Assembly: GCF_017545445.1 (NCBI RefSeq)
Contig: NZ_JAFWOM010000136.1
Coordinates: 1-64,000, forward strand
Reading direction: 5' to 3'
Origin: Fibrobacter sp.
GTDB taxonomy: Bacteria > Fibrobacterota > Fibrobacteria > Fibrobacterales > Fibrobacteraceae
Length of the DNA: 64,000 nt
The position numbers were made by a program, and so were the translations under genes. The notes under the pieces were generated by a model, which saw only the letters and a program-made list of their open reading frames with translations, did no database searches and was not told where the DNA came from. The first letter of the stretch is position 1, and every line of letters begins with the position of its first letter. This document shows positions 9,147-34,790 of the stretch, one piece after another.

Positions 9147-9210
9147 AAATATAGAACGCGTTTTTTACTTTGTCCAATACTTATTTTTTATGCTGAGTTA
9201 TTGATTTTTT
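9147..9210 (-). promoter_or_regulatory. Sulfur-type promoter of the tusA-carrier-moeB-JAMM cluster
   Basis: TTGGAC at 9177-9172, 18 bases, TATATT at 9153-9148. Upstream is AATAACTCAGCATAA, one of the best copies of the extra block, then AAGTATTGGACAAAG. The expected transcript starts about 30 bases before the tusA ATG. Confidence 0.75.
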
Positions 9211-10522: not shown

Positions 10523-10600
10523 AAATATAGAACGCGAACATGTAATTGTCAAATACTAATTTTATATGGCTTTTTATAGATTTTGTCTATATGTGGAGGG
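10523..10600 (-). promoter_or_regulatory. Sulfur-type promoter of metY
   Basis: TTTGAC at 10553-10548, 18 bases, TATATT at 10529-10524. The AGTATTTGACAA core has one change from the consensus, and the upstream CTCAGCATA block is poorly kept (AGCCATATAA instead). Confidence 0.65.
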
Positions 10601-13872: not shown

Positions 13873-13883
13873 AGGTGTAGCCA

Positions 13884-13960
13884 AATTTAGAACGTGTTAT
13901 TGCGTTTGTCCAATACTAAATAATTATGCTGAATTATCGTTTTTTTCTATATCAAACGAG
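13884..13960 (-). promoter_or_regulatory. Sulfur-type promoter of cysTWA
   Basis: TTGGAC at 13913-13908, 18 bases, TAAATT at 13889-13884. Upstream is AATTCAGCATAATTATTTAG then TATTGGACAAACG, a good match to the family. Confidence 0.75.
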
Positions 13961-15493: not shown

Positions 15494-16765
15494 TTATTTG
15501 ATTGTTGCCGTGAATCGTGCTGCAAGTGCGACATCGGATGTTTTCTTTTCGCTGAATGCGGTCAGCTGGATCTTGGAATGGGAGCCGAGTTTCTTGATCA
15601 AGCTCACGGTCCAGGCGAGATTGTCTGCATCAGCGTTCAACTCATCGCGATGAGAGACGTATTCAAGTTCTGCATAAACGTTGTTGAAAATGCCTGCGGT
15701 GGGAATTTCAAGACCGACGAAAAACGGTACGTATTTCGTATCTTGAGCGTATTCCGACTTGATGGCGTTTGGAGCCTTGAGGTTTTCTCCATCACCGGTG
15801 GCGATAAGGGCGACTTCACCGTAGAGGCCGAAATTCTTTTGGAAGTAGTAGCTGGCGCGTGCTGCTGCACGGTGGGTGGGTTGGGCCGTGTGCTGGATGA
15901 CATCAAGGGCGTTCACGCGGTAAGCGGCGCCGATTTTTGCATCACCAAACTTGAGTGTTTCTTCGATGCGGATGTAACCCGTGTTGAACTTGGAATCGTA
16001 AGTGCCGAGCAAGGCGTTGAATGTCGAAATGCCTTTTTCAAAACCAAAGGCGATAGCATCGTGCTGGTAATCGCGAGCGAGGAATCCGCGCTTGTTCAGG
16101 TGCACATCTACATAAGTACCGAAGTTACCTGCAACAGTCCAGTCTGTACGGAAACGACCGAATTGAACATTAAATTTACCGTATTCGGTGTCCCACTTGT
16201 AATTGGCGTAGTAGGTATCGGCGGAAATCTTGTCGTAGCTCTTGCCTTCGATGGTGTTGCCAAAAGCGGGGCTGAAAATGCGCAAGTTGATTACAGCTTC
16301 AAAGCTTTCTGATGTGAATTTTCCGCCAATGTTTGCACGCAAGAAGGAATTGTCAAGCGTATTGTCTGCATCGTTATCGTACAGCGACTTGATGGCCTGT
16401 GCTTGAACGTTACCGGTGAGCTTGAAGGAGCTTTCTTTTTTCTTTGAGGCTTTTTCCTTCGGTGCTTCTGCAACAGGAGCTTCTGCTTCAATCGCTGCAA
16501 CGACTGGGGCGGTTTCTACAGGAACTGTGGATTCGGTGGCTGTTGCCACGGGTGCTTCTGCAGGTGCCGCAGATTCGGGGGTTGTTGCCACGGGAGCTTC
16601 TACAGGAGCTGCTGATGCGGAGGTTGTTGCCACAGGTGCTTCTGTAGGAGTTTCCGCCTTCGGAGCGTCTGCAATAGGTGCTGCATCTTGGGCGAAAACA
16701 CTGGAAACAAAAAGGGATGTTGTGATGGCCGCAGCTGCGGCAAGTCTAGAAATTTTCTGATTCAT
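15494..16765 (-). CDS. Outer-membrane porin-like protein with a Pro/Ala-rich linker
   Basis: ATG 16765 follows AAGGAG. The signal peptide MNQKISRLAAAAAITTSLFV ends near SSVFA-QD. Residues 28-110 are a repetitive EAPVATT/SAAPVEAP linker that could span periplasm or peptidoglycan. The remaining 310 residues have alternating polar/aromatic strands (NLRIFSPAFGN, YYANYKWDTEYGKFNVQFGRF, VGLEIPTAG) and end in a strand (VALAARFTATIK), as expected of a beta-barrel. It is first behind a sulfur-type promoter, before the sulfate-binding gene, so sulfate or organosulfur passage is inferred. No specific family can be named. Confidence 0.75.
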   Translation of the reverse strand: MNQKISRLAAAAAITTSLFVSSVFAQDAAPIADAPKAETPTEAPVATTSASAAPVEAPVATTPESAAPAEAPVATATESTVPVETAPVVAAIEAEAPVAEAPKEKASKKKESSFKLTGNVQAQAIKSLYDNDADNTLDNSFLRANIGGKFTSESFEAVINLRIFSPAFGNTIEGKSYDKISADTYYANYKWDTEYGKFNVQFGRFRTDWTVAGNFGTYVDVHLNKRGFLARDYQHDAIAFGFEKGISTFNALLGTYDSKFNTGYIRIEETLKFGDAKIGAAYRVNALDVIQHTAQPTHRAAARASYYFQKNFGLYGEVALIATGDGENLKAPNAIKSEYAQDTKYVPFFVGLEIPTAGIFNNVYAELEYVSHRDELNADADNLAWTVSLIKKLGSHSKIQLTAFSEKKTSDVALAARFTATIK

Positions 16766-16812
16766 TCCAAACTCCTTGTTTTGATTTTTGTTGTTCTTTT
16801 TTTTGTGCGCAC

Positions 16813-16890
16813 AAATATAGAAGGCGTTTTTTGTTTTGTCCAATACTAAATTTTTATGCTGAGCTATTGGTTATTTTTATTATTATAAAT
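16813..16890 (-). promoter_or_regulatory. Sulfur-type promoter of the porin gene
   Basis: TTGGAC at 16843-16838, 18 bases, TATATT at 16819-16814. Upstream is AATAGCTCAGCATAAAAATT then TAGTATTGGACAAAA, one of the closest matches to the consensus. Confidence 0.75.
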
Positions 16891-17039: not shown

Positions 17040-18725
17040 TTATTTGATCACGACTTTTCTGTATGTGTCAAAAACTGTCCACTTCTTGAAGAATCCCTCG
17101 CGACCTGTTTCGCCTGCTTCGGCATATTCGCGGAGGAGTCGCGACACGTCTTCGTCGGAGTGCACCTTGATTTCAAAGCCACGTCCGTTGATGACCGGGA
17201 AACCGTCGTAGAGATACTCGTTTGCAGCCGTGATTTCGGCAATGCGCTTGCCGCGCACCTTGACGGCGGTGCTGTCGCGCAAAATGATGATGTCGAAATC
17301 GTCGGGGTAGTGGTAGCTTTCGCCTGTGGTGGGAATTTCGTCGCCAACTGTGTAGTGTTGCTTTACGGGTTGCTGTTTTACGACAGAGAGCGTTGCTGTA
17401 TCGTAGAAAAATTCTTCAAAAATTTCTCCTCGACCATGGCGCTCGCCTTGCACAAAGGCTGCCTTTTCGTTGGATTGAAGTTGCTTTTCGTAGAGCCCTT
17501 CAACAACGCCGCAAGCGGCTGTTGCATGCGTTACGATGTCAATGAGAATGAGCTCGCCAAGCGTTTTGTGCTTTTCAAAAAGATCAACGACAATGGCTTC
17601 GGCGAAAACAAGTTCGCAGACGGCAATCCCGTTTTTGGAAATGCTTTCTGTTTCTAAGTGTGCGCCTGTGTTCACGTCAATGGCATAGTCGATTTTCGTG
17701 AGTGTTCCAGGAATAATCTTTGTCCCGATTTTGACGAGGTAGTCTTTGCCTAGCGAAAGCGGCTCGTCATCCATCCACAAAAGTGACGCCTTGATTTTCT
17801 TGTAGCTACCGATGCTTGCATCTCTAGCGAGCACGCAACCTCTCGATACGTCAACTTCACGGTCTAGCGTAATCGTGACCGGTTCGCCAGCGTGGGCTTC
17901 TTCGACATTCCTGTTTGTGTAGAGAATGCTTTTGACGGATGCTTTCTCGTAGCTCGGAAGAGACTTGATGACATCTCCGACGCGAATCGTTCCGGATTCA
18001 ATCTGTCCTTGAAATCCACGGAATGTACGGTTGGGGCGGCTCACTCGCTGCACGGGCATGTAAAATCCCTTTTCTTGCGCGGAGCTTGATGTATCGACAT
18101 TTTCAAGGTATTCAAGCAATGCGGGGCCTTGATACCATGCAATGTTTTTCGATTTGATGGTAACGTTGTCGCCTTCTGTTGCCGAAAGCGGAATAACTTG
18201 TATGTTGCTCAGGGAATGAGTCTGTGCAAGTTCTGCGATTTGTACCTTGATTTTGTTGAATACATCTTCGCTGTAACCTACAAGGTCCATCTTATTTACA
18301 GCAAAGACAAAGTAACGGATACCCATGAGTTTGCAAATGCGGGCGTGACGGCGAGTCTGCACAAGTACGCCTTGCGACGCGTCCACAAGAATCACGGAGA
18401 GGTCTGCAAAAGATGCTCCCACCGCCATGTTGCGTGTATATTCTTCGTGCCCCGGCGTATCGGCTACAATAAAACTGCGATGATCCGTAGTGAAATAGCG
18501 GTACGCGACATCGATGGTAATGCCCTGCTCGCGTTCTGCCATCAGACCGTCAAGCAAAAGGGAATAGTCGATTTTTCCGCTGCGGCTACCTACCTTGCTA
18601 TCGAGTTCCAAAGCCTTTTCCTGGTCGGTGTAAAGCAATTTGGAATCGTAAAGAATATGCCCGATGAGTGTAGATTTTCCATCATCTACTGAGCCGCATG
18701 TAATAAACTTCAACAAACCTTTCAT
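17040..18725 (-). CDS. cysN: Sulfate adenylyltransferase subunit 1 (GTPase)
   Basis: 561 residues. GTPase motifs G11-S-V-D-D-G-K-S-T19, DTPGHEEY and NKMD are intact, followed by EF-Tu-like beta-barrel domains. CysN hydrolyses GTP to drive APS synthesis by CysD. Residues beyond about 440 form an extra tail (YTVGDEIPTTGESYHYPDDF...) with no recognised APS-kinase P-loop, so a CysNC fusion is not seen. The ATG overlaps the cysD stop as TAATG. Confidence 0.94.
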   Translation of the reverse strand: MKGLLKFITCGSVDDGKSTLIGHILYDSKLLYTDQEKALELDSKVGSRSGKIDYSLLLDGLMAEREQGITIDVAYRYFTTDHRSFIVADTPGHEEYTRNMAVGASFADLSVILVDASQGVLVQTRRHARICKLMGIRYFVFAVNKMDLVGYSEDVFNKIKVQIAELAQTHSLSNIQVIPLSATEGDNVTIKSKNIAWYQGPALLEYLENVDTSSSAQEKGFYMPVQRVSRPNRTFRGFQGQIESGTIRVGDVIKSLPSYEKASVKSILYTNRNVEEAHAGEPVTITLDREVDVSRGCVLARDASIGSYKKIKASLLWMDDEPLSLGKDYLVKIGTKIIPGTLTKIDYAIDVNTGAHLETESISKNGIAVCELVFAEAIVVDLFEKHKTLGELILIDIVTHATAACGVVEGLYEKQLQSNEKAAFVQGERHGRGEIFEEFFYDTATLSVVKQQPVKQHYTVGDEIPTTGESYHYPDDFDIIILRDSTAVKVRGKRIAEITAANEYLYDGFPVINGRGFEIKVHSDEDVSRLLREYAEAGETGREGFFKKWTVFDTYRKVVIK

Positions 18726-19624
18726 TAGAAATATCCCTCCCTCTTGCGGCGTTCCATGCTGCCAGCGGCTTCGTTGTCAATCACGCGGGATGTGCGTTCT
18801 GAGGATACTGCGCTCAATGTTTCGTCAATGATTTCGTCAAGCGTCGTGGCGGTCGATTCAATGCCGCCCGTGAGCGGGTAGCAACCGAGTGTGCGGAAAC
18901 GTACCGACTTGATTTCGGGCGTTTCGCCTTCGCGCAGCGGGAAGCGTTCGTCATCCACCATGATGATGTTGCCGTCGCGCACCACAACCGGGCGCGGTGC
19001 CGCAAAGTAAAGCGGTACGATATCAATCTTTTCGCGTTTGATGTACTGCCAGATGTCCTTTTCGGTCCAGTTCGAAATCGGGAAAACGCGGATGCTTTCG
19101 CCCTTGTTGATCTTGGTGTTGTAAAGCTTCCACATTTCAGGGCGCTGGTTTTTCGGATCCCAGGCGTGGGCAGAATTGCGGAACGAGAAAATTCTCTCCT
19201 TCGCGCGGGACTTTTCTTCGTCGCGGCGACCGCCGCCAAAGGCTGCGGTAAAGCCGTACTTGTTCAAAGCCTGCTTCAATGCCTGCGTCTTCATGATGTC
19301 GGTGTAGGCGGATCCATGGTCAAAGGGATTGATGCCGCGATCAACGCCGTCCTGGTTGATGTATTCCAACATCTCGATGCCGAGTTTTTGCGCCGTGCGG
19401 TCGCGGAACTCGATCATCTCGCGGAACTTCCACGTGGTGTTCACGTGCAAGAACGGGAAAGGTGGCTTTTCAGGGTAAAAGGCCTTCATAGCCAAATGCA
19501 ACATGACGGAACTGTCCTTGCCAATGGAATACAACATCACAGGCTTTTCGCATTCTGCGGCGACTTCGCGAATGATGTAGATGGCTTCGGCTTCCAGCTC
19601 GTCGAGGTGAGAAAATTCGCTCAA
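18725..19624 (-). CDS. cysD: Sulfate adenylyltransferase subunit 2
   Basis: 299 residues of the PP-loop ATP pyrophosphatase family. [18 protein letters not shown] (about 32-49) holds the SGKDS-like loop; [13 protein letters not shown] and the C-terminal [10 protein letters not shown] are typical of CysD. The start is TTG 19624 with AGGAGA eight bases upstream. It makes adenosine 5'-phosphosulfate from sulfate and ATP with CysN. Confidence 0.95.
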
Positions 19625-19679
19625 ATTAAATCTCCTGTGAAATTCCGGATTAAGCCCGGAATAACGTTTGGTGAAACTC

Positions 19680-20006
19680 CTAGTATTTGTTCGATTCCTT
19701 GGGGTCGATATCGATAGTCTTGACGCTTCCGTCGTTCAGTTCAAAGAACCAACGCACGATATCGTTCTTTTCGCCCTTGACTTTTTCGGTATGCACCTTG
19801 CAGCCCTTGCCTCCGATGTCTTCGCCGAGGAAGAAGCTGATGGCGTGAACCGGACATTCCTTGATGCACGAGGTGCAACCCCAGCAATCTTTGGGGTACT
19901 TGATAAACGCTTTTTTATTTTCGTTTATCTTGATTAACGTGCCGGGGCAAACGTCGTGGCAGCGCTTGCATCCAATGCACTTGCCTTGATCAATGATGAT
20001 GCTCAT
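19680..20006 (-). CDS. Ferredoxin-type subunit of an APS reductase (AprB-like)
   Basis: 108 residues with two [4Fe-4S] motifs: C10, C13, C16, C20-P and C41, C44, C47, C51-P. The C-terminal [20 protein letters not shown] resembles the AprB tail but is shorter than in dissimilatory AprB. The ATG lies inside the 3' end of the AprA-like gene, a 17-base overlap, so the two are made together. It should pass electrons to the AprA-like flavoprotein for reduction of APS to sulfite. The donor is unknown. Confidence 0.85.
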
Positions 20007-21792
20007 AGTTCTTTTGCCCTTCTGCGGTGAGTTCGCGCAAGATGATTTTAATTTGTCCGTTTTCGAGACGGGAATTGACGTACTTGCGGAAATTTATGTT
20101 GTCCTTTTCGGGGTAGTCGGTGTTTTCGGCAAAGCTGTGCCAGCGAGTCTCGTGACGCGCGGCCAAGTGCTCAATTACGCTCTTGCAGACCGTGAGGCGT
20201 TCCTTTAGCTCGTAGATGTACATGACTTCTTGCAAGTCGGTGGCGCTAAGCTTGCCCGTAAGGCTTTCGATTTCGTCAATTTTTTCTTTGGCGATATTGA
20301 GCTGCTTTTCGGTATAGCCGTAGCCTGTCGTGATTCCGCCTGCATATTCGTCCATGGCGATTTGCATGGCTTCTTCAAGTTGCTCTGTCGTGTACAGCGA
20401 ATTTTTCTGTGATAGATATGTTTCGATTTCTGCGACGTGGCTTGCGATTTCGGCTTCTTTGATGGTTGCTTCGGCAGGCTCAGCAACCTTAAATCGTGCA
20501 TCAGGTCCCTGAGCTGGTTGATGAGTTTGTCGAATCAGCCGAAGGGCCGACAAACTCTCTATATATTCCACGGCACTCTTCGCTGCAATCTCGCCTTCGG
20601 CAAGGGCCCCCGTCACATACTTTTGCGGAGCGCCTCCTGCTACATCGCCTGCAGCGTAAAGCCCGTCAATTGTCGTTGCGCGTCTGGTATCGACCCAGTA
20701 ACCGCTTGCGGTATGGCCGCCCACGATGTAGGGTTCCGTACCTTCAATTTCGACATTCGCCTTCGACGGCGTGTTGTTTTCAATCCAGCGAATCGTCTGC
20801 GACGGCGCCATGTTCAGGTAAGCCTTCAAAAGCGATTCTTCCTGCTCGGGCGTAATCCCGACGGTGCGCAAGTAGCATGGCCCGCGGCCTTCCAAGTTTT
20901 CCGCCACAGTTCCGTAAACGCGTTCCGATGTAGAAATACCATACTTCGTCTCGTAAACTTCGCCGAGAGCGTTCACCTGCTTGGCACCCACGCCCTGCGC
21001 GAGCGTCCCCGTCGGGGCAATCGTGTCCTTGCAACGCAGCGCAATAAATCGCATCTCGAAAGTCGTCATCTCGGCTCCGTGACGGATACCCATCGCGTAG
21101 CCTGCACCCGTGTTGAACGGCGGGTACCACATCTTGTGCCGCGAAAATCCCGGATTATTCGGGCGGTAAAGCCCGGACGCACCGCCTGTCGCGACAATCA
21201 CGGCATCTGCCTCGATGGCATAGAAAGTGTCGTTCTCTATTCCGAATCCGAAAGCACCGTCAATCTTGTTGTCGTGAACGGAAAAATCGAAAATGTTCAC
21301 GTGGTTCAACACCTGAACGTTCGGGGCCTTCGCGACAGCCGCCGCCAAAATCGGCTTGATGTTCTCGCCGTTGATTTTGATGTTACGGTTCCCGCGAGTC
21401 ACATACTTGCCGTCCTTGTCTTTCAAGATGACAAGCCCCAGCTTTTCCAAGTGTGCCGTGACCTCGTTGAACTTCTCGGAAATGCTATACAGCAAATCCT
21501 CGCGGACGATTCCGTCGGCATCCTTCTTCGCGTAATCCACGTAATCCTTGGGCGTGCGGCCTTCGGTAATGTAGGCGTTCAACGCGTTTACGCCAGCGGC
21601 AAGGCAACCGCTCCGCTTGATATTCGCTTTTTCGACGACGAGTATCTTGAAGCCGGCACCTTTATTTTCTGCGGCATTTAACGTGGCGTTATTTGCAACA
21701 TCCCGTATTCCAGCGGCTGTAATCGCTGCATAACATCCAGCCGTTCCGCCGCCAATAATCAGCAAGCCTGTCTTTATTTTTTCAATTTTCAT
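19990..21792 (-). CDS. Flavoprotein subunit of an APS reductase (AprA-like)
   Basis: 600 residues of the FAD-dependent fumarate-reductase/AprA family. FAD motif GGGTAGCYAA at 14-23, then VEKANIKRSGCLAAGVNALN, ATGGASGLY, and a C-terminal FAD contact AAGDVAGGAPQKYVTGALAEGE. AprA reduces APS to sulfite and AMP. No CysH-type thiol-dependent APS/PAPS reductase is visible, and the gene lies between cysD and a sulfite reductase, so assimilatory use of an Apr-like enzyme is inferred. Low homology to succinate dehydrogenase explains any alternative annotation. Confidence 0.87.
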   Translation of the reverse strand: MKIEKIKTGLLIIGGGTAGCYAAITAAGIRDVANNATLNAAENKGAGFKILVVEKANIKRSGCLAAGVNALNAYITEGRTPKDYVDYAKKDADGIVREDLLYSISEKFNEVTAHLEKLGLVILKDKDGKYVTRGNRNIKINGENIKPILAAAVAKAPNVQVLNHVNIFDFSVHDNKIDGAFGFGIENDTFYAIEADAVIVATGGASGLYRPNNPGFSRHKMWYPPFNTGAGYAMGIRHGAEMTTFEMRFIALRCKDTIAPTGTLAQGVGAKQVNALGEVYETKYGISTSERVYGTVAENLEGRGPCYLRTVGITPEQEESLLKAYLNMAPSQTIRWIENNTPSKANVEIEGTEPYIVGGHTASGYWVDTRRATTIDGLYAAGDVAGGAPQKYVTGALAEGEIAAKSAVEYIESLSALRLIRQTHQPAQGPDARFKVAEPAEATIKEAEIASHVAEIETYLSQKNSLYTTEQLEEAMQIAMDEYAGGITTGYGYTEKQLNIAKEKIDEIESLTGKLSATDLQEVMYIYELKERLTVCKSVIEHLAARHETRWHSFAENTDYPEKDNINFRKYVNSRLENGQIKIILRELTAEGQKNYEHHH

Positions 21793-21827
21793 TTTTGTGC
21801 TTTTGGCTAGCTATGACTGGGAACGGA

Positions 21828-22688
21828 TTAACCGTTATACACGTCCTGGATTTTCTTTGCAAAAACGTCGCGACCGACGCGGTCGATCGTGTACTTGAAA
21901 CGTTCACCGCTCTTTCCGTTGTCTGCAAAGAACTGGATGGCTGCATCGCAAATGTCCAAGAGCTTCTGCTTGTCTTCCACAAACGGAATAATCGTTTCGC
22001 CCTTGTTGATGTTGTTGCCAAAGAGGCCGCCAAACGATACAATGTAGCCGTGAATGTGGCTCCACGCGTCAGTGGGGCAGGACTTGTAGCAACGACCGCA
22101 GTAATTGCATTTTTCCTTGTCGAAAATGACTTTCTTGTTATCAATCTTGATGGCCTCTTTACGACAGACCTTTGCGCAAAGCCCGCAACCAATGCATTTG
22201 TTCTCAAGCCAATCCACCTTGATTGCGCCCTTGATGCCTACGTCGTTTTCTTCGGCCTTGAGGCAGTTGTTCTGGCAGCCCGTCACGCCAAATTTGAACT
22301 TGTGCGGAAGTTCTCGTGCAAAGTAGCGGTCGTCAAGTTCCTTGGCGATAGCGTATGTGTCAATGCAACCGCTCGGGCAAACAGCTTCGCCCTGGCATGC
22401 CGTAATGGTACGCACACGTGCGCCGCAAACGCCGGGTTCTACGCCACCCTCGGCAAGCGCGTTTTTCACATCGTCAATATTTTCAAGCTTGATAAACGGA
22501 ATTTCGACGCTCTGTCTCGAAGTCAAGTGAGCGTAACCTTCGCCAAATTTTTCAGCGACTTCGGCGATTTTGGCTAGCTGTGTTGCAGTGAGGTTTCCGC
22601 CAACAACGCGAACGCGCAGCGAAAAATTGTTCTTCTGCTTTTGGCGCATCCAGCCGCCCTTTTTGAGTGTAGAGTAATCAACTGCCAT
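21828..22688 (-). CDS. Siroheme sulfite reductase with two ferredoxin clusters (AsrC-like)
   Basis: ATG 22688 is chosen (GGGAGA upstream); earlier codons fall in the -10 box. The 286 residues have the siroheme-[4Fe-4S] ligands C98-x5-C104 and C138-x3-C142 (TGCQNNC), followed by two ferredoxin motifs CIGCGLCAKVC and CNYCGRCYKSC. This arrangement matches small anaerobic sulfite reductases such as AsrC. It reduces sulfite to sulfide, and is first in a run with the AprA/AprB-like pair, cysD and cysN. Confidence 0.88.
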   Translation of the reverse strand: MAVDYSTLKKGGWMRQKQKNNFSLRVRVVGGNLTATQLAKIAEVAEKFGEGYAHLTSRQSVEIPFIKLENIDDVKNALAEGGVEPGVCGARVRTITACQGEAVCPSGCIDTYAIAKELDDRYFARELPHKFKFGVTGCQNNCLKAEENDVGIKGAIKVDWLENKCIGCGLCAKVCRKEAIKIDNKKVIFDKEKCNYCGRCYKSCPTDAWSHIHGYIVSFGGLFGNNINKGETIIPFVEDKQKLLDICDAAIQFFADNGKSGERFKYTIDRVGRDVFAKKIQDVYNG

Positions 22689-22713
22689 AGAATGTCTCCC
22701 ATTTTTTGCATGC

Positions 22714-22790
22714 AAATATAGAATGGGGGAGTGCTCATGTCCAATACTTAATAAATATCACGTATGATAAAATTAATTTATTAGTAATCT
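22714..22790 (-). promoter_or_regulatory. Sulfur-type promoter of the sulfite reductase operon
   Basis: TTGGAC at 22744-22739, 18 bases, TATATT at 22720-22715. AAGTATTGGACAT is kept; the upstream CTCAGCATA block is replaced by ATCATACGTGAT, an imperfect inverted repeat. Confidence 0.72.
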
Positions 22791-22915: not shown

Positions 22916-23921
22916 ATGTCCGATGTGAAAAGATTTTCTGCGAAAGATTTTTTTAAGATTGATTTGGAAAACTCAACATTGCTCGATGTTCGTGAACCGG
23001 GCGAAGTGCTTGTGCGGCCCGTGAATGGCGCTATCCAGATTCCTTTTTTTTGAACTTTCGAAAAAAATTGACTCTATTCCGAAGGATAAACCTGTTTATG
23101 TTTTTTGTTCGACGGGAGATCGTTCTGAACAGGTCTCAGAAATTCTTGTCGATCGCGATTTTGACGCGTATAATGTGGAGGGCGGTCTTAATGCTGTTCC
23201 CAAAATCCATTTCGTCGATGCAAAGGGATTGTGTTGTCCTGGGCCGATTGTAAAAGTGAACGATGTTATTCGCGATGCTTTTGTCGGTGATGAATTTCAT
23301 GTGGAAGCGACGGAAAAAGCATTTGCGCTTGATGTCAAAACTTGGTGCGAACGGACGGGAAATCTATTGAAATCGCTCGATGAAAAAGATGGCGTGATTT
23401 ATGCGACAATCGTCAAGCAAAATGCACCCGTTCCTGAAAAAATAGAATTTGAACACGCCAAGACTTTTGTCGTTTTCAGTGGCGATTTGGATAAGGCTAT
23501 TGCGTCGTTCATTATGGCGAATGGCGCTGCTGCAATGGGTCGCCCGGTGACGATGTTCTTTACGTTTTGGGGTGTGAGTCTTTTGCGTAGGCCCGAAAAA
23601 GTTCGCGTCAAAAAAACGTTTATCGGAAAAATATTTAGCTTTATGCTCCCGCGAGGTTCCAAAAAGCTAGGGCTTTCTCGCATGAATTTTGGCGGAATCG
23701 GTGCGAAGATGATTCGTGCCGTGATGAAGCAGAACGGCGTTTCTTCACTTGAAGAACTGATTGAAAGTGCAAGGCGAAAAGGCGTAAAATTTGTCGCATG
23801 TCAAATGTCAATGGAACTGATGGGGATTAAGCCCGAAGAGCTGATTGACGGCGTTGAACTCGGTGGTGTCGCGACAATGCTCGGCTCCACTGAAAAATCG
23901 GACTTGACCTACTTTATTTAG
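22916..23921 (+). CDS. Rhodanese-TusA-DsrE/F fusion with a frameshift in a T8 run
   Basis: The protein starts [15 protein letters not shown] at ATG 22916 with a rhodanese domain ([10 protein letters not shown]). At 23044-23051 a run of eight T shifts the frame; seven T would join it to [20 protein letters not shown]. The rhodanese Cys lies in [10 protein letters not shown] TusA domain ([13 protein letters not shown]) and a C-terminal DsrE/F-like domain ([19 protein letters not shown]) follow. Such domain trains relay persulfide sulfur. The frameshift may be an inactivating mutation, a sequencing error, or slippage-controlled expression. A sulfur-type promoter lies just upstream. Confidence 0.8.
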
Positions 23922-24934
23922 CGAATTTGGTCAAAAATGGCGCCGTCGGCAAAGTGCTTGGCTTGTGCTTTATCCCAACCGCCAAAATGCTCAATCGTGA
24001 TCAGATTGACATTCTGATCGAATTCTTTGTACTCGTCAAGAATCGCCTTGTTTGTCGGACGGTAATGATGCCTTGCCGCAACATGCTGCACTTCGTCAGA
24101 GTATAGATAATTTAGGTATTCCGTCGCAAGTTTGCGCGTGTTGCGTTTGTCTACAATCTTATCTACAATCGCGACAGAAGGCTCTGCCAAAACGCTCACA
24201 CTCGGCATCACGATTTCGTAATCCTTGGGGTAGTCCTTGAGCGAAAGGAAAGCCTCGTTTTCCCAAGAAAGCAGCACATCGCCCTTGCGTTTTTCAATGA
24301 ATGTATTTGTTGAACCGCGTGCGCCCGAAGCGAGGTCAAGAACATTTTGATAAAGCTTCTTCATGAAACCTTTGACTTGCTCCTCATCTCCGTTGAACTG
24401 CTTTTCTGCATAAGCCCAAGCCGCGAGATAATTCCAGCGCGCACCGCCCGAAGTCTTGGGATCTGGCGTGATGATGCCGATGCCATCCTTGACGAGATCG
24501 TTCCAGTCCCTGATTTTCTTGGGATTCCCCTTGCGCACGAGAAACACAATCGTCGAAGTGTAAGGAGCGCTGTTGCGCGGAAATTCCTTGACCTAGCCGT
24601 TTTCAATAAGCCCTGCGTCACGGACGATGTTCACGTCGTATTCCAGCGCGAGCGTGACCACATCCGCTTCAAGCCCATTCACCACCTCATGCGCCTGCTT
24701 GCCCGAACCGCCATGAAACTGCGTAATTTTCACATCCTTGCCGGTCGCCTCTTTCCAATGCTTCATAAAAATATGATTGTAATTGGAATAGAATTCACGC
24801 GTCGGGTCGTAAGACGCGTTGACAAGCGTGTTGTTCTCAATCTCGGGAGCCTTTTCCGAACTGCAACCGAAAAAACAACCCGCGCCCGCCACCAGCGCCA
24901 CTGCAAAAACTGTCTTGAAAAAATGCAGATTCAT
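23918..24934 (-). pseudogene. Second sulfate-binding lipoprotein gene, broken by an in-frame TAG
   Basis: A close paralogue of the gene at 14298 over its full 339 codons: lipoprotein signal ending GCFFGC, then [27 protein letters not shown], and [13 protein letters not shown]. The codon at 24595-24593 is TAG where the intact copy has TGG ([10 protein letters not shown] there, LIENG-stop-VKEF here). No other lesion is visible, so the mutation is recent or an error. It converges with the rhodanese fusion, their ends overlapping by four bases. No clear sulfur-type promoter precedes it. Confidence 0.85.
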
Positions 24935-24955
24935 AGTGAAATTCCTTCTTATTGA

Positions 24956-25129
24956 GAATGATCGTAAAATTTTATTGGCAATATGAAATTATTTTATAAA
25001 AAGGGGGATGAATCCCCCTGGTTCGCACTTCGTTGCTCTCCACCTCCTCTGCGGGGCTCAGACGCCGCCCCGCAACGCCTGGCTTGCCCGCCCAACCCAC
25101 CCCTTTTATGCAAAGGGGGATAGTGCATG
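24956..25129. other. GC-rich intergenic stretch beside the insertion sequence
   Basis: No gene seen. It holds an AGGGGGATGAATCCCCCT hairpin (about 25001-25018), a C-rich core with CGGGGC and GCCCCG, and CCCCTTTTATGCAAAGGGG (25100-25118), all unlike the AT-rich surroundings. Confidence 0.5.
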
Positions 25130-25171
25130 TGTCAGCTACCCATTTTTAGGACTGGTTTAAAGTATACAAAA

Positions 25172-25960
25172 TCACCCTGTTCTCATCAACCGATACTCCA
25201 TTGGAGCGAGGTTGTTTAAGGAGTCGTGGGGTCTTTCGTTGTTGTAGTAATCCGTCCACTTTTCGGTAATTTCCCTTACATCATCTAAAGTCCTGAAAAT
25301 ATAGGCGTCAAGAACAGCCCTTCGGTACGATCCGTTAAACCGTTCGATGTAGCTGTTCTGAGTCGGACACCCGGGCTGCGTGTACAAAATTTTGATTCCG
25401 TTCCCATCGCACCAATCTTGAAATTTATGCGAAATGAATTCCGGACCGTTGTCGCAGCGAATGTTGCTCGGCTTGCCTTTCTCCCAAATGATTTCCTCCA
25501 TGAATCGAATCAAGCGGGATGCCGGTATGGAATGCGCAACCTTCTGTGCAACGGCCACACGGTCGCTGTCGTCGATGACGTTGAGTACGCGGAACTTGCG
25601 GTTGCTTTGCAAAACGTCAGTAACGAAGTCCATCGACCAGGTGACATTTTCCTGGTCCGGTGTCACGAGCGGATTCTTGACTCGGGCTGGCAAGCGTTTG
25701 CGCAACGGCTTTCGCTTGTTGAAATGAATCGCCTCGTAGACGCGGTGGACCTTCTTATGGTTCCACGGATGCCCATCCTTGCGAATCAGCCTGAATATTT
25801 TCCAGAAGCCGTCGTTGGCAGCCTCGGCCTTCTGCCGTATCGCAGCCTCGACTTCGGAATCGTCCTTGGTTGATTCGTAGTAGAAGTATGACTTGTGGAT
25901 GCCCATCAATCTGCACGCCCGAGTAATGCTGATGTCGTGGTCCTCTGCTATTTCGCCCAC
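25172..25960 (-). CDS. IS3-family transposase, OrfB (DDE integrase part)
   Basis: 262 residues from the first ATG. The HTH_21-like start (ITRACRLMGIHKSYFYYES) is followed by an rve integrase core with acidic residues in SMDFVTD, NVIDDSDR and a C-terminal NSYIERFNGSYR (DDE triad). The frame is open upstream to the slippery run, so it is most likely made as an OrfAB fusion after a -1 shift rather than from this ATG alone. All key residues are present. Confidence 0.9.
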   Translation of the reverse strand: MGEIAEDHDISITRACRLMGIHKSYFYYESTKDDSEVEAAIRQKAEAANDGFWKIFRLIRKDGHPWNHKKVHRVYEAIHFNKRKPLRKRLPARVKNPLVTPDQENVTWSMDFVTDVLQSNRKFRVLNVIDDSDRVAVAQKVAHSIPASRLIRFMEEIIWEKGKPSNIRCDNGPEFISHKFQDWCDGNGIKILYTQPGCPTQNSYIERFNGSYRRAVLDAYIFRTLDDVREITEKWTDYYNNERPHDSLNNLAPMEYRLMRTG

Positions 25961-31055: not shown

Positions 31056-31604
31056 TTAATGATGGTGATGGCCTTCGTGCATGGAATCCATGTGGTGCGT
31101 GGGGGCTTGTACTTCTGAAAACGATTTCGCTTTGGGTTTGTAGCCTGCGATTCCCGGGTCAACCATTCCAAAAATCATGGCGATGTGAGAAAGCACAAGG
31201 AATGCCGCAAGTAGAAGAATAGCGTATGTCGTTCTTTTCTGTTCAATAACTTTGCGGAATAAAAGCTTCAAGTTCAAAAGGGCGAGCAATATCATCGGGA
31301 TGCCCGCGAGGATATAAGAGAATATGGCTACGACATCAATCCAAGTTCTGAATTCACCAGCAGTTGCTAGCGGAATAATGACATTTGGAATAAAATAGAT
31401 TATGATTCCTACAAATGCAAGCCCGGCTAGAACACCCGCAATGTGATTCACTTTGGAAAGCATCGGGTACGCATTTGGCGATTTGAGCAGGAACAATTCC
31501 GTTATGGCGATTGTCTCTGCGAGAATGACAGGAATTGCCATGAAGAGAATCAGATTCCAGGGAGAATTCTGCATCAGCAGATCCATATAGTGGGTCGAGT
31601 ACAT
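31056..31604 (-). CDS. Membrane protein with a His-rich tail, unknown function
   Basis: 182 residues with GAGGA before the ATG. It has four to five membrane helices (NLILFMAIPVILAETIAITE, HIAGVLAGLAFVGIIIYFI and so on) and a cytoplasmic or periplasmic tail THHMDSMHEGHHHH that may bind metal. It belongs to an uncharacterised family of short bacterial membrane proteins. It follows the cupin gene in the same direction and may be the last gene of that operon. Confidence 0.65.
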   Translation of the reverse strand: MYSTHYMDLLMQNSPWNLILFMAIPVILAETIAITELFLLKSPNAYPMLSKVNHIAGVLAGLAFVGIIIYFIPNVIIPLATAGEFRTWIDVVAIFSYILAGIPMILLALLNLKLLFRKVIEQKRTTYAILLLAAFLVLSHIAMIFGMVDPGIAGYKPKAKSFSEVQAPTHHMDSMHEGHHHH

Positions 31605-31725: not shown

Positions 31726-32328
31726 TTACACATATTTTGAAAGCGTTTTGACATCGTTTCCGCTCCACGTATAGAGCGCGAGCATGGGTTCGTTTTCGGT
31801 TTGCATGGAATGAATATGATTGGATGGATGCAATACAAATTCACCGGGACCGCGTACTTTTGAAATCCCGTCTAGTGTCCAAATGGCGTGTCCAGATAAA
31901 ATAACGTAAAGTTCTGTGGCGGGGTGCAAGTGGGAGGGGTAAAAGGTGTTTTTGCCGAGGAGCGTAAAGCCGAAACAAAAATGCTCATCGTGGTAGGGGG
32001 CTTCCGGGCCGAGAATTTCTCCCCATCCCATTTGATCGGCTAAATCAGGCATGTCGGGCCGCGGCTCGTAATTGTATTTCCATGGCAAATAGGGGAGGGC
32101 GGGTTCTAGTGCTTTTAGCAAATCCGCTGTTTCGGGGGTGCCGTGCTTGATGGCTTCTTCGATATAGCGGACTAACGGCGAATCGCTTTTCTCGAATTTT
32201 CCAACAGGCTTGGGGATGTCACGGACTGCAAAATTGGCCGCTTCGAGCCCGATTTTATCGTCTATTTTTGCTCTCTTGAAAAGAAACTTTTGGGATTCCT
32301 CAATTAAATTTTGAATAACGTTTTTCAT
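31726..32328 (-). CDS. Cupin protein resembling DMSP lyases (DddL-type)
   Basis: 200 residues. The cupin motif PSHLHPATELYVILSGHAIW (131-150) gives metal ligands H133, H135 and E139, with Y141; a second motif HPSNHIHSM supplies H171/H173. The DMSP_lyase family shares HxHxxxExYxxLxGxAxW. Real DMSP lyases split dimethylsulfoniopropionate to dimethyl sulfide and acrylate. Whether this one does so is unknown; a related thioether or sulfonium substrate is possible. It is third in the MetY2-methyltransferase-cupin operon. Confidence 0.75.
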   Translation of the reverse strand: MKNVIQNLIEESQKFLFKRAKIDDKIGLEAANFAVRDIPKPVGKFEKSDSPLVRYIEEAIKHGTPETADLLKALEPALPYLPWKYNYEPRPDMPDLADQMGWGEILGPEAPYHDEHFCFGFTLLGKNTFYPSHLHPATELYVILSGHAIWTLDGISKVRGPGEFVLHPSNHIHSMQTENEPMLALYTWSGNDVKTLSKYV

Positions 32329-32335
32329 AGCATCC

Positions 32336-33295
32336 CTATTCTACACTTGATTTTAATACGGCAACGGTATGGCCGATGATTTCGCCTTTTTTGAATGCTT
32401 CGTATGCGGCGGTTGCGGTAAGCTTTACGGAATCGAGAGTTTTTTCAATTTCAAAAGCCCGTTTGCCGGAATCCTTGACAGAAATGTTTGCAAATGCTTT
32501 TTGCAAGTCTTCAGCGCGGTAGAATCTGAACGGGCCGAGGCCAGCTTTTTCTTGCGCGACGTATCCCGAAATCACATCTTCCGGCTCGGCTTGGACTTTC
32601 CAGGAATACGTGAAAATTTCAGAACGGAGTCCGGCGAGTTCGCCAAGCTTGATGAAGGCATTGAGCGGAACGCGGCCTCCGAGCGTCGAATAGACAGCCC
32701 CATTTTCGGCTAAGTAATCGCGTGCTTGCTTGAGTGCCAAGTAATGCAAGTCGAGCATTTGTTCATGCACAAATTCGGGAATAGCCTCTTCGCGTTTTTC
32801 CAAGTAATGCCCGCTGTTGCGTTTGTCTTCAATTTTTGTATTGCTTGCAAGCGGAACGTTGGGGAGGTTCTCGTAAATCACATCGAAATTACGCTTGCCG
32901 TTTTGGAGCGGTTGCAAAAGATCGCCGTTGCCGAATTCAAATTCGATTTTGGAGGTCTCTTTGATATTGCTTCGAACGTTCTGTGCCGCGGCTGCAACAA
33001 CGCTTCTTTGCAAATCCGTGAAGCCTACGCGTTTTGCTCCCAAAAGTTCAATGCCGGTCAACACGTCAATGCCGGATCCAGTGCCTATGGAAACGAATGA
33101 ATCAATGTCGTGGCCCAGCTTTTCGCGGATTAGCTTGAATGCAGGGGCTGCAATGTAGGCGACCCAGTCGCTTTTGATATCTTCTGTTTTCGGCAGGTAG
33201 GCGTGATCGGCAACTTCAATCGAAAGATAATCTTTGATGTGTTTTGCCGCACTGTTCAATGCAAGGTATTTATTGACATCTACAACTATACTCAT
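32336..33295 (-). CDS. SAM-dependent methyltransferase
   Basis: 319 residues. SAM loop S69-I-G-T-G-S-G75 and an ENLPNVP motif at 142-148, similar in place to the NPPY motif of N-methyltransferases. The substrate is unknown. The ATG overlaps the MetY2 stop as TAATG and the cupin gene starts after a few bases, so the three are translated together. A role on a methylated sulfur compound is a guess from the neighbours. Confidence 0.8.
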   Translation of the reverse strand: MSIVVDVNKYLALNSAAKHIKDYLSIEVADHAYLPKTEDIKSDWVAYIAAPAFKLIREKLGHDIDSFVSIGTGSGIDVLTGIELLGAKRVGFTDLQRSVVAAAAQNVRSNIKETSKIEFEFGNGDLLQPLQNGKRNFDVIYENLPNVPLASNTKIEDKRNSGHYLEKREEAIPEFVHEQMLDLHYLALKQARDYLAENGAVYSTLGGRVPLNAFIKLGELAGLRSEIFTYSWKVQAEPEDVISGYVAQEKAGLGPFRFYRAEDLQKAFANISVKDSGKRAFEIEKTLDSVKLTATAAYEAFKKGEIIGHTVAVLKSSVE

Positions 33296-34650
33296 TACTT
33301 ACCGCCTTTGGTGCTTGCTGCAATAGTTTGTTCAAAATCTGCAATGATGTCGCGGGGATCTTCGATGCCCACGGATACGCGAATCATATCGTCAGGGATG
33401 CCTGCGGCGAGCCTGTCTTTTGGCGAAAGCTGCGAATGCGTGCTTGTCGCCGGGTGCAAAACGCTTGTGCGGGCGTCGCCCACGTGAACGACGAGGGCGG
33501 CGACTTTCAATGCTTTGACGAAGGAACGGATGGCGGCTCTGCCACCTTTGAGGCCGAAGGTGAGCACACCGCTGCCGCCTTGATAATCAAAGTATTTGCG
33601 GATACGCTTGAAATTCGGGCTAGATTTGAGTCCTGGATAGCTGACCCAATTCACGGCGGGGTGCTTGGACAAAAATTCAGCCAATGCGAGTGCGTTGTTG
33701 CTGTGTTGCGGCATTCGCAAATGGAGCGTTTCTAGGCCCAAATTCAAAAGGAATGCGTTGAACGGGCTTAATGCGGCTCCGAAATCGCGCAAAAATTGAG
33801 CACGTGCTTTCGCGATAAATGCGGCTCTGCCAAATTTTTGAGTATAGGAAGTGTTTGCGTATTGCGCGTCAGGTTCCACGAGGTCCGGGAACTTTCCGTT
33901 TTCCCAGTTGTAATTACCGCCGTCAATGACGACACCGCCGAGTGCAACGGCATGTCCGTCGATGTACTTTGTTGCTGAATGAATGACGACGTTTGCACCG
34001 AGTTTCAAAGGCTTCACGAGGAATGGCGTTGCGAGCGTGTTATCGACGAGGAATGGAACGTCAAATTCCTTGGCGAGCTTGGAGAACTTTTCAAAGTCCA
34101 AAATGCCCAAGGCGGGGTTGCCAATCGTTTCGCCGAAAATGAGCTTGGTGTTCGGGCGGAATGCTTTGCGAAGTTCTGCGATGGAATCTTCCGGGTTGAT
34201 GAACGTCGTTTCAATGCCGAGCTTGGAAAGTCGCACGCTGAGCAATGTGTAGCTGCCGCCGTAAATGGTCTTGCTGGCAACAATATGGTCGCCTGCTTTC
34301 ACGAGGTTCGAAATCGCGAGGAGGACTGCTGCTTGTCCCGAAGCGGTCGCGACAGCTCCCACGCCGCCTTCGAGTTCCGTAATCTTGCTTTCGAATGCCG
34401 CAACGGTCGGGTTTCCTGTGCGGGTGTATTTGTTGCCCGATTGCTTGAGCGCAAAGAGTCGTTCCACTTCATCGACGTCTTCGTACTTGTACGTCGTGGA
34501 TTGAAAAATCGGGAGCACGCGCGGCTCGCCAATCTTGGGTTTCCAGCCAGCCTGTAAACACTTTGTTGCAAAATTCCATGTGCTCGGATCGGTAACGTTT
34601 GCTATATTCTTTGCAGATTCAATTTTCTTTTTAGATGAAGTCTTTGTCAT
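33295..34650 (-). CDS. O-acetylhomoserine sulfhydrylase, second copy
   Basis: ATG 34650 is chosen (GAGGAG upstream). The 451-residue PLP enzyme has K in HSATKYIDGHAVALGG, VDNTLATPFL and SVGIEDPRD as in MetY. It differs from the copy at 9254 by a 30-residue basic N-terminal extension (TKTSSKKKIESAKN) and many substitutions, so its sulfur donor may differ, for example methanethiol giving methionine. It is led by a sulfur-type promoter and coupled to the methyltransferase. Confidence 0.88.
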   Translation of the reverse strand: MTKTSSKKKIESAKNIANVTDPSTWNFATKCLQAGWKPKIGEPRVLPIFQSTTYKYEDVDEVERLFALKQSGNKYTRTGNPTVAAFESKITELEGGVGAVATASGQAAVLLAISNLVKAGDHIVASKTIYGGSYTLLSVRLSKLGIETTFINPEDSIAELRKAFRPNTKLIFGETIGNPALGILDFEKFSKLAKEFDVPFLVDNTLATPFLVKPLKLGANVVIHSATKYIDGHAVALGGVVIDGGNYNWENGKFPDLVEPDAQYANTSYTQKFGRAAFIAKARAQFLRDFGAALSPFNAFLLNLGLETLHLRMPQHSNNALALAEFLSKHPAVNWVSYPGLKSSPNFKRIRKYFDYQGGSGVLTFGLKGGRAAIRSFVKALKVAALVVHVGDARTSVLHPATSTHSQLSPKDRLAAGIPDDMIRVSVGIEDPRDIIADFEQTIAASTKGGK

Positions 34651-34708
34651 TTTTAAACTCCTCTTTAGCAAAATATTTGCTCTTAAATTTTTCTATTTGT
34701 TCGACGAA

Positions 34709-34790
34709 AATATAGAACGGAACTATTACCTTGTCCAATACTAAATTAATATGGTGAGTTATAGAATTAATTTATTAGTGATATAAAACA
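34709..34790 (-). promoter_or_regulatory. Sulfur-type promoter of the MetY2-methyltransferase-cupin operon
   Basis: TTGGAC at 34738-34733, 18 bases, TATATT at 34714-34709. Upstream is TATAACTCACCATATTAATT then TAGTATTGGACAA, keeping the extra block. Confidence 0.75.

Follow-up and report, generated by a model that had tools for sequence, protein, structure and literature searches.

The locus raises the question of why a Fibrobacter genome should carry, in one tight operon, a second gene for an O-acetylhomoserine sulfhydrylase together with those for a methyltransferase and a cupin of the DMSP-lyase family, and what such a combination could contribute to sulfur metabolism. In the window—the whole stretch of 64,000 nucleotides that was analysed—the initial annotation had placed three genes linked through a TAATG overlap and a gap of 7 bases, and exactly these three minus-strand open reading frames were found between positions 34650 and 31726: metY2 (33295..34650, 451 aa), a member of the O-acetylhomoserine sulfhydrylase family; MT (32336..33295, 319 aa), encoding a class I SAM-dependent methyltransferase; and the cupin gene (31726..32328, 200 aa), whose product belongs to the DMSP-lyase family (DddQ/DddL-type). 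The ATG of MT overlaps the stop codon of metY2, the gap lying between MT and the cupin gene, and the ATG of metY2 at 34650 is preceded by a Shine-Dalgarno sequence (AAAGAGGAG), so that the upstream TTG at 34671 is unneeded as a start. Purifying selection acts on all three genes, with dN/dS of 0.02-0.08 in comparisons with unsaturated dS. A search of the 64-kb window for Rfam elements found none.

Concerning the first gene, its reading as a second O-acetylhomoserine sulfhydrylase is borne out by a score of 559.1 bits with TIGR01326 (OAH/OAS sulfhydrylase; curated cut-off 495.1), by the match to PF01053 and by the closest solved relatives, which are O-acetylhomoserine sulfhydrylases. Orthologues of metY2 with at least 90% identity occur only in genomes possessing MT and the cupin gene, the other MetY paralogues being at most 55% identical; the genomes with the metY2 clade hold several of these further paralogues, one of which adjoins a dedicated sulfur-carrier system. 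As for the cupin, described initially as DddL-like, the family assignment stands (PF16867, DMSP_lyase, 91.7 bits against a gathering cut-off of 27, E-value 5.6e-26), whereas the closer label does not, since the nearest proteins of solved structure are DddQ-type lyases. The metal ligands and catalytic tyrosines named for DddQ (PMC4437653)—Y120, H123, H125, E129, Y131 and H163—align to Y130, H133, H135, E139, Y141 and H173 of the cupin, i.e. six out of six are kept, and all of them are invariant in 12 orthologues. With the complete active-site set in place, the elimination of a sulfur leaving group appears a reasonable reaction to predict for this protein. It should be noted that another DMSP-lyase-family cupin sits in a cluster of CoA-ligase and hydratase genes, the family thus not being confined to one pathway.

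The methyltransferase agrees with its initial assignment to the SAM-dependent enzymes (PrmA, 8.9e-5; PRK14968, 2e-9), it matches no named family and its close relatives include none of known function. It is built of a PrmC-like core and a C-terminal part of its own. The invariant GTGSG SAM motif and Asp94 are the counterparts of the GxGxG motif and Asp69 of MmtN, both features being shared by most class I methyltransferases, while among the other functional residues of MmtN (PMC9135737) Cys121 and the Met-binding Glu127 are not conserved, aligning to Asn143 and Leu149, and Arg132 and Glu250 have no sure placement in the alignment. An AlphaFold model built on the 12 orthologues from the genus reached a pLDDT of 34; once distant PrmC-type sequences were added, a usable core was obtained (pTM 0.71, pLDDT 65). 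With this model of pLDDT 65, the top Foldseek match among 350,542 PDB chains was MmtN (7vvw, E = 8e-10, TM 0.43-0.50), and MmtN accounted for 9 of the best 22 chains despite the PrmC padding, with other methyltransferases following close behind. Profile searches do not bear this out: a three-sequence MmtN/MMT profile does not detect MT in its own genome, and the hidden Markov model of MT scores PrmC higher than MmtN, giving no profile link to the latter. Shuffle tests revealed a weak similarity of MT to MmtN and to plant MMT, in the case of MMT via a C-terminal GGR region. A presumed plant MMT sequence, supported as such by its first PDB match, MmtN 7VVV, served only as a lead. With the shuffles in favour and the profiles not, the relatedness to plant MMT is suggestive only, and from the modelled fold MT may possibly be a distant relative of the methionine S-methyltransferases MmtN and MMT. 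All orthologues of MT retrieved from GTDB, by two search patterns that were both genus-specific, come from Fibrobacter records, mostly metagenome-assembled genomes of F. succinogenes; a search of plasmids found no relatives of MT.

The sulfur-type promoter proposed ahead of the operon was recovered as an exact match to TTAGTATTGGACA-N14-TTCTATATTT at 34708..34744 on the minus strand, which is kept upstream of the operon in other genomes. With up to three mismatches allowed, the window contains nine such sites against 0.00 expected in shuffled sequences, and the whole genome of 4.88 Mb contains 11, the reversed control giving 0. The nine sites mostly precede genes of sulfate assimilation; the other two of the 11 lie at the locus of a methylthio-alkane reductase (MAR), described below. 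The sites in the window include those, each on the minus strand, upstream of metY1 (10523..10559), of the genes for TusA, a ThiS-like carrier, ThiF and JAB proteins (9147..9183), of sulfate-type ABC permease genes (13883..13919), of a gene for a predicted outer-membrane protein with no Pfam match (15494-16843; site at 16813..16849), and of a gene run with sulfite-reductase-like, AprA-like and CysDN members (22714..22750). The last part of the motif resembles the general promoter -10 element, and the specific regulatory signal is therefore probably GTATTGGAC, lying over the -35 element. Because of the kinds of genes that the motif precedes, the corresponding regulator is taken to sense sulfur.

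Several of these neighbouring genes deserve a brief description. The segment 6574-10483 (minus strand) comprises metY1, followed under its own motif by genes for a TusA-like protein, a ThiS-like carrier ending in GGGC, a ThiF/MoeB-like adenylyltransferase and two JAB-domain proteins; this cluster probably makes homocysteine in a thiocarboxylate-dependent manner, like HcyS/HcyF/HcyD. The run at 17040-22715 (minus strand) encodes CysD and CysN, a 4Fe-4S ferredoxin-like protein of the size of AprB, an AprA-like flavoprotein and a ferredoxin-containing sulfite reductase, and possibly represents an AprAB-like route of APS reduction used for assimilation. At 23918-25960 (minus strand), a second sulfate-binding-protein-like gene is split over two frames beside a transposase-like open reading frame, and is thus probably a pseudogene.

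The trio proved to be conserved as a unit. MT, the cupin gene and the metY2 clade (at least 90% identity) were found in an identical set of 12 of the 61 genomes compared, and MT and the cupin gene are adjacent in all 54 of the 54 loci. In a scan of 151 genomes every strong cupin match falls in a genome bearing MT; four MT genomes lack a cupin among the matches listed in that scan, one of them (G014) having a cupin in the search of the 61 genomes. Two arrangements were recognised. In arrangement A, seen in the window and in other genomes, metY2, MT and the cupin gene form a single operon. In arrangement B, metY2 follows a set of DUF4418, FtsX and ABC genes and stands ahead of a gene for an SsuA-type binding protein, with a divergent metK between metY2 and the MT-cupin pair, the latter lying mostly 2.5-2.8 kb downstream and farther away in some loci. 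The initial annotation had regarded independent regulation of the cupin, or a trio not kept together, as evidence against a common function; in the split lineage, the sulfur motif is situated directly upstream of MT, its GTATTGGAC part being preserved in nearly all loci, and metY2 is preceded by a degenerate copy. Since motifs thus precede both MT-cupin and metY2, co-regulation has been kept despite the separation. A gene for a DUF6803 membrane protein with a His-rich tail (31056-31604 of the window, minus strand) lies directly 3' of the trio in some A-type genomes and does not adjoin it in B-type genomes. In the finished genome of a sister genus (G078, locus L096, 9948-12384), a transposase gene interrupts MT, the cupin gene being intact. 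The occurrence of the trio is patchy even among close relatives: two genomes (G007 and G011) are without it, though their LeuC proteins share about 100% identity with the one encoded in the window.

The partner locus is found on another contig of the same genome (C83:15440-23649, equal to L114 1441-9650), where a marH-marD-marK-type run on one strand continues into genes for a predicted porin and an SsuABC-type importer. The α subunit, which is NifD-like, scores 617 bits with R. rubrum MarD (9FMG) versus at most 128 bits with true nitrogenases, and the Arg428-His429 hallmark of MarD is present (IRHPGLA versus IRHNGLA of 9FMG); both the structure 9FMG and the Arg-His hallmark are those of the R. 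rubrum methylthio-alkane reductase (PMC12552129). A NifB-like gene on the same contig (C83:7930-8748) scores under the NifB equivalog cut-off. The two promoter motif copies lie next to the MAR genes, one before a divergent gene for an aminotransferase-fold (PatB/MalY-like) protein and the other before DUF4418-FtsX-ABC genes; the region upstream of marH itself shows only a loose resemblance to the motif. This DUF4418-FtsX-ABC ATPase set (L114 12480-14792) has its homologues upstream of metY2 in the B-type genomes. Nitrogenase-like genes of Fibrobacteres were noted in 2012, with no function given (PMC3464626); in five genomes (G001, G004, G013, G018 and G026) a second nitrogenase-like D/K pair occurs, which differs from MAR and shares about 33% identity with MarD.

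MAR is common among the MT genomes (27 of 32) and infrequent among the rest (9 of 136; Fisher 1e-18, a value that ignores relatedness). In five B-type genomes MAR and MT share a contig and are 13-29 kb apart. A strict dependence of the trio on MAR was nevertheless rejected, as MAR was undetected, at the threshold used, in five MT genomes (G078, G082, G113, G141 and G147). MAR is thus probably dispensable for the existence of the trio, which suggests another route to methanethiol in those genomes or its direct release by the cupin.

What, then, might the operon do? We tentatively regard it, with a confidence somewhat short of even, as an organosulfur-salvage module of the Fibrobacter sulfur-starvation regulon, in which a sulfonium compound would be made and cleaved and methanethiol fixed into methionine. 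MT, perhaps acting like a thioether S-methyltransferase, would make the sulfonium, a DMSP-like dimethylsulfonium compound, from which the cupin, as a lyase, would eliminate the methylated sulfur as leaving group. Such a hand-over from an S-methyltransferase to a sulfonium lyase would account for the fact that MT and the cupin are never apart. The dimethyl sulfide (DMS) released, or methanethiol set free directly, would feed a methanethiol pool. MAR turns DMS, ethyl methyl sulfide and 2-methylthioethanol into methanethiol and methane, ethane or ethylene (PMC12552129), and its Fibrobacter counterpart may likewise reduce DMS and other methylthio-alkanes to methanethiol and a small hydrocarbon. 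MetY2 would finally condense methanethiol with O-acetylhomoserine to methionine, a coupling performed in R. rubrum by MetY-type enzymes (PMC4958253), and sulfide would be left to MetY1 and its sulfur-carrier system. The earlier proposal of a thiol freed from a thioether and fixed on O-acetylhomoserine has gained support from the MAR operon with its sulfonate-type importer and the two promoter copies elsewhere in the genome. The data support the linkage of the genes, their common promoter and the identification of MAR; the substrates and reactions are predictions. In its fully specified form—MT methylating a thioether, the cupin freeing DMS, MAR yielding methanethiol and methane, and MetY2 forming methionine—the route is, in our estimate, unlikely to hold in every step.

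The invariable pairing of MT with the cupin, which favours a joint reaction, also speaks against the view that the cupin cleaves dimethylsulfonium compounds of the plant diet, such as S-methylmethionine or DMSP, with MT serving separately, e.g. in methylation of a by-product, and MetY2 fixing the sulfur after MAR. That view would suit the intact active site of the cupin, the SsuA-type binding proteins adjoining both MAR and, in the split arrangement, metY2, as well as the origin of the orthologues mostly from rumen-type Fibrobacter records, and it is considered unlikely. The trio genomes lacking MAR would be accounted for if the cupin freed methanethiol directly from a methylthio intermediate, like the MTXu-5P cupin of R. 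rubrum in the salvage of 5-methylthioadenosine, with MetY2 using the product and MAR being a parallel source; a cupin and an O-acetylhomoserine sulfhydrylase indeed end the MTA-isoprenoid shunt (PMC4958253). The cupin, however, is a PF16867 member bearing the active-site residues of DMSP lyases, the shunt has no role for MT, and inspection by eye of the loci read revealed no RLP-type gene next to the trio; this explanation appears decidedly improbable.

More conservatively, MetY2 could be an ordinary sulfide-using homocysteine synthase co-regulated with sulfate assimilation, MT and the cupin forming a sensor or other unrelated pair. The score of MetY2 as a plain OAH/OAS sulfhydrylase and a regulon consisting mostly of sulfate assimilation agree with this, but several other MetY paralogues are present, including the one beside the dedicated sulfur-carrier system, and the MetY2 clade is found only with MT and the cupin; we hold it to be quite unlikely. 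The constant pairing of a methyltransferase with a lyase-family protein would also fit the detoxification of volatile sulfur, with sulfide or a toxic thiol as the substrate methylated by MT and the product dealt with by the cupin; a promoter common to sulfur-acquisition genes is, however, the opposite of what detoxification needs, and this last explanation is very improbable.

All the enzyme families of the trio and MAR are already known; the combination of metY2, MT and the cupin was not found in the literature searched (an open-access subset), and the trio is part of a definable regulon whose host genomes carry MAR. Were the salvage reading correct, DMSP-lyase-type chemistry and methylthio-alkane reduction would be brought together within one sulfur-starvation regulon of major rumen fibre degraders, and a physiological context would be available for assigning function to a non-marine DMSP-lyase-like cupin. 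If the sulfonium is both made and broken by the pair, a rumen fibre degrader would assimilate organic sulfur anaerobically and emit methane derived from DMS; with MAR emitting methane, ethane or ethylene, the pathway could be a non-archaeal gut source of small hydrocarbons.

It remains to compare the operon with the systems already described. The thiocarboxylate homocysteine synthesis by HcyS, HcyF and HcyD of Wolinella has its similar genes in the window (ThiS-like carrier, ThiF and JAB) with MetY1, not with the trio. With the cupin DMSP lyases DddQ, DddL and DddW (PF16867) the Fibrobacter cupin shares the family, the six DddQ residues and the cupin motifs, although the relationship is distant (about 30% identity to annotated plasmid-borne members), the protein comes from a gut anaerobe and its lyase activity is a prediction. 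MT resembles MmtN and plant MMT in the PDB fold match and the weak C-terminal GGR similarity, and differs from them in the profiles and at the positions of Cys121 and Glu127. The MTA-isoprenoid shunt of R. rubrum, with its MTXu-5P sulfurylase cupin and OAH sulfhydrylase, is alike in the pairing of a thiol-freeing cupin with a sulfhydrylase, whereas the Fibrobacter trio has the extra MT, a cupin of the DMSP-lyase family and no RLP-type gene recognised alongside. The MAR-based methionine salvage of R. rubrum (marBHDK and MetY) has not been described with an MT-cupin pair, the promoter motif near the Fibrobacter MAR genes differs from that of R. rubrum and these genes run into those for the porin and the SsuABC-type proteins; the two systems nevertheless have in common MarHDK, a NifB-like protein, MetY and an apparent regulation by sulfur.
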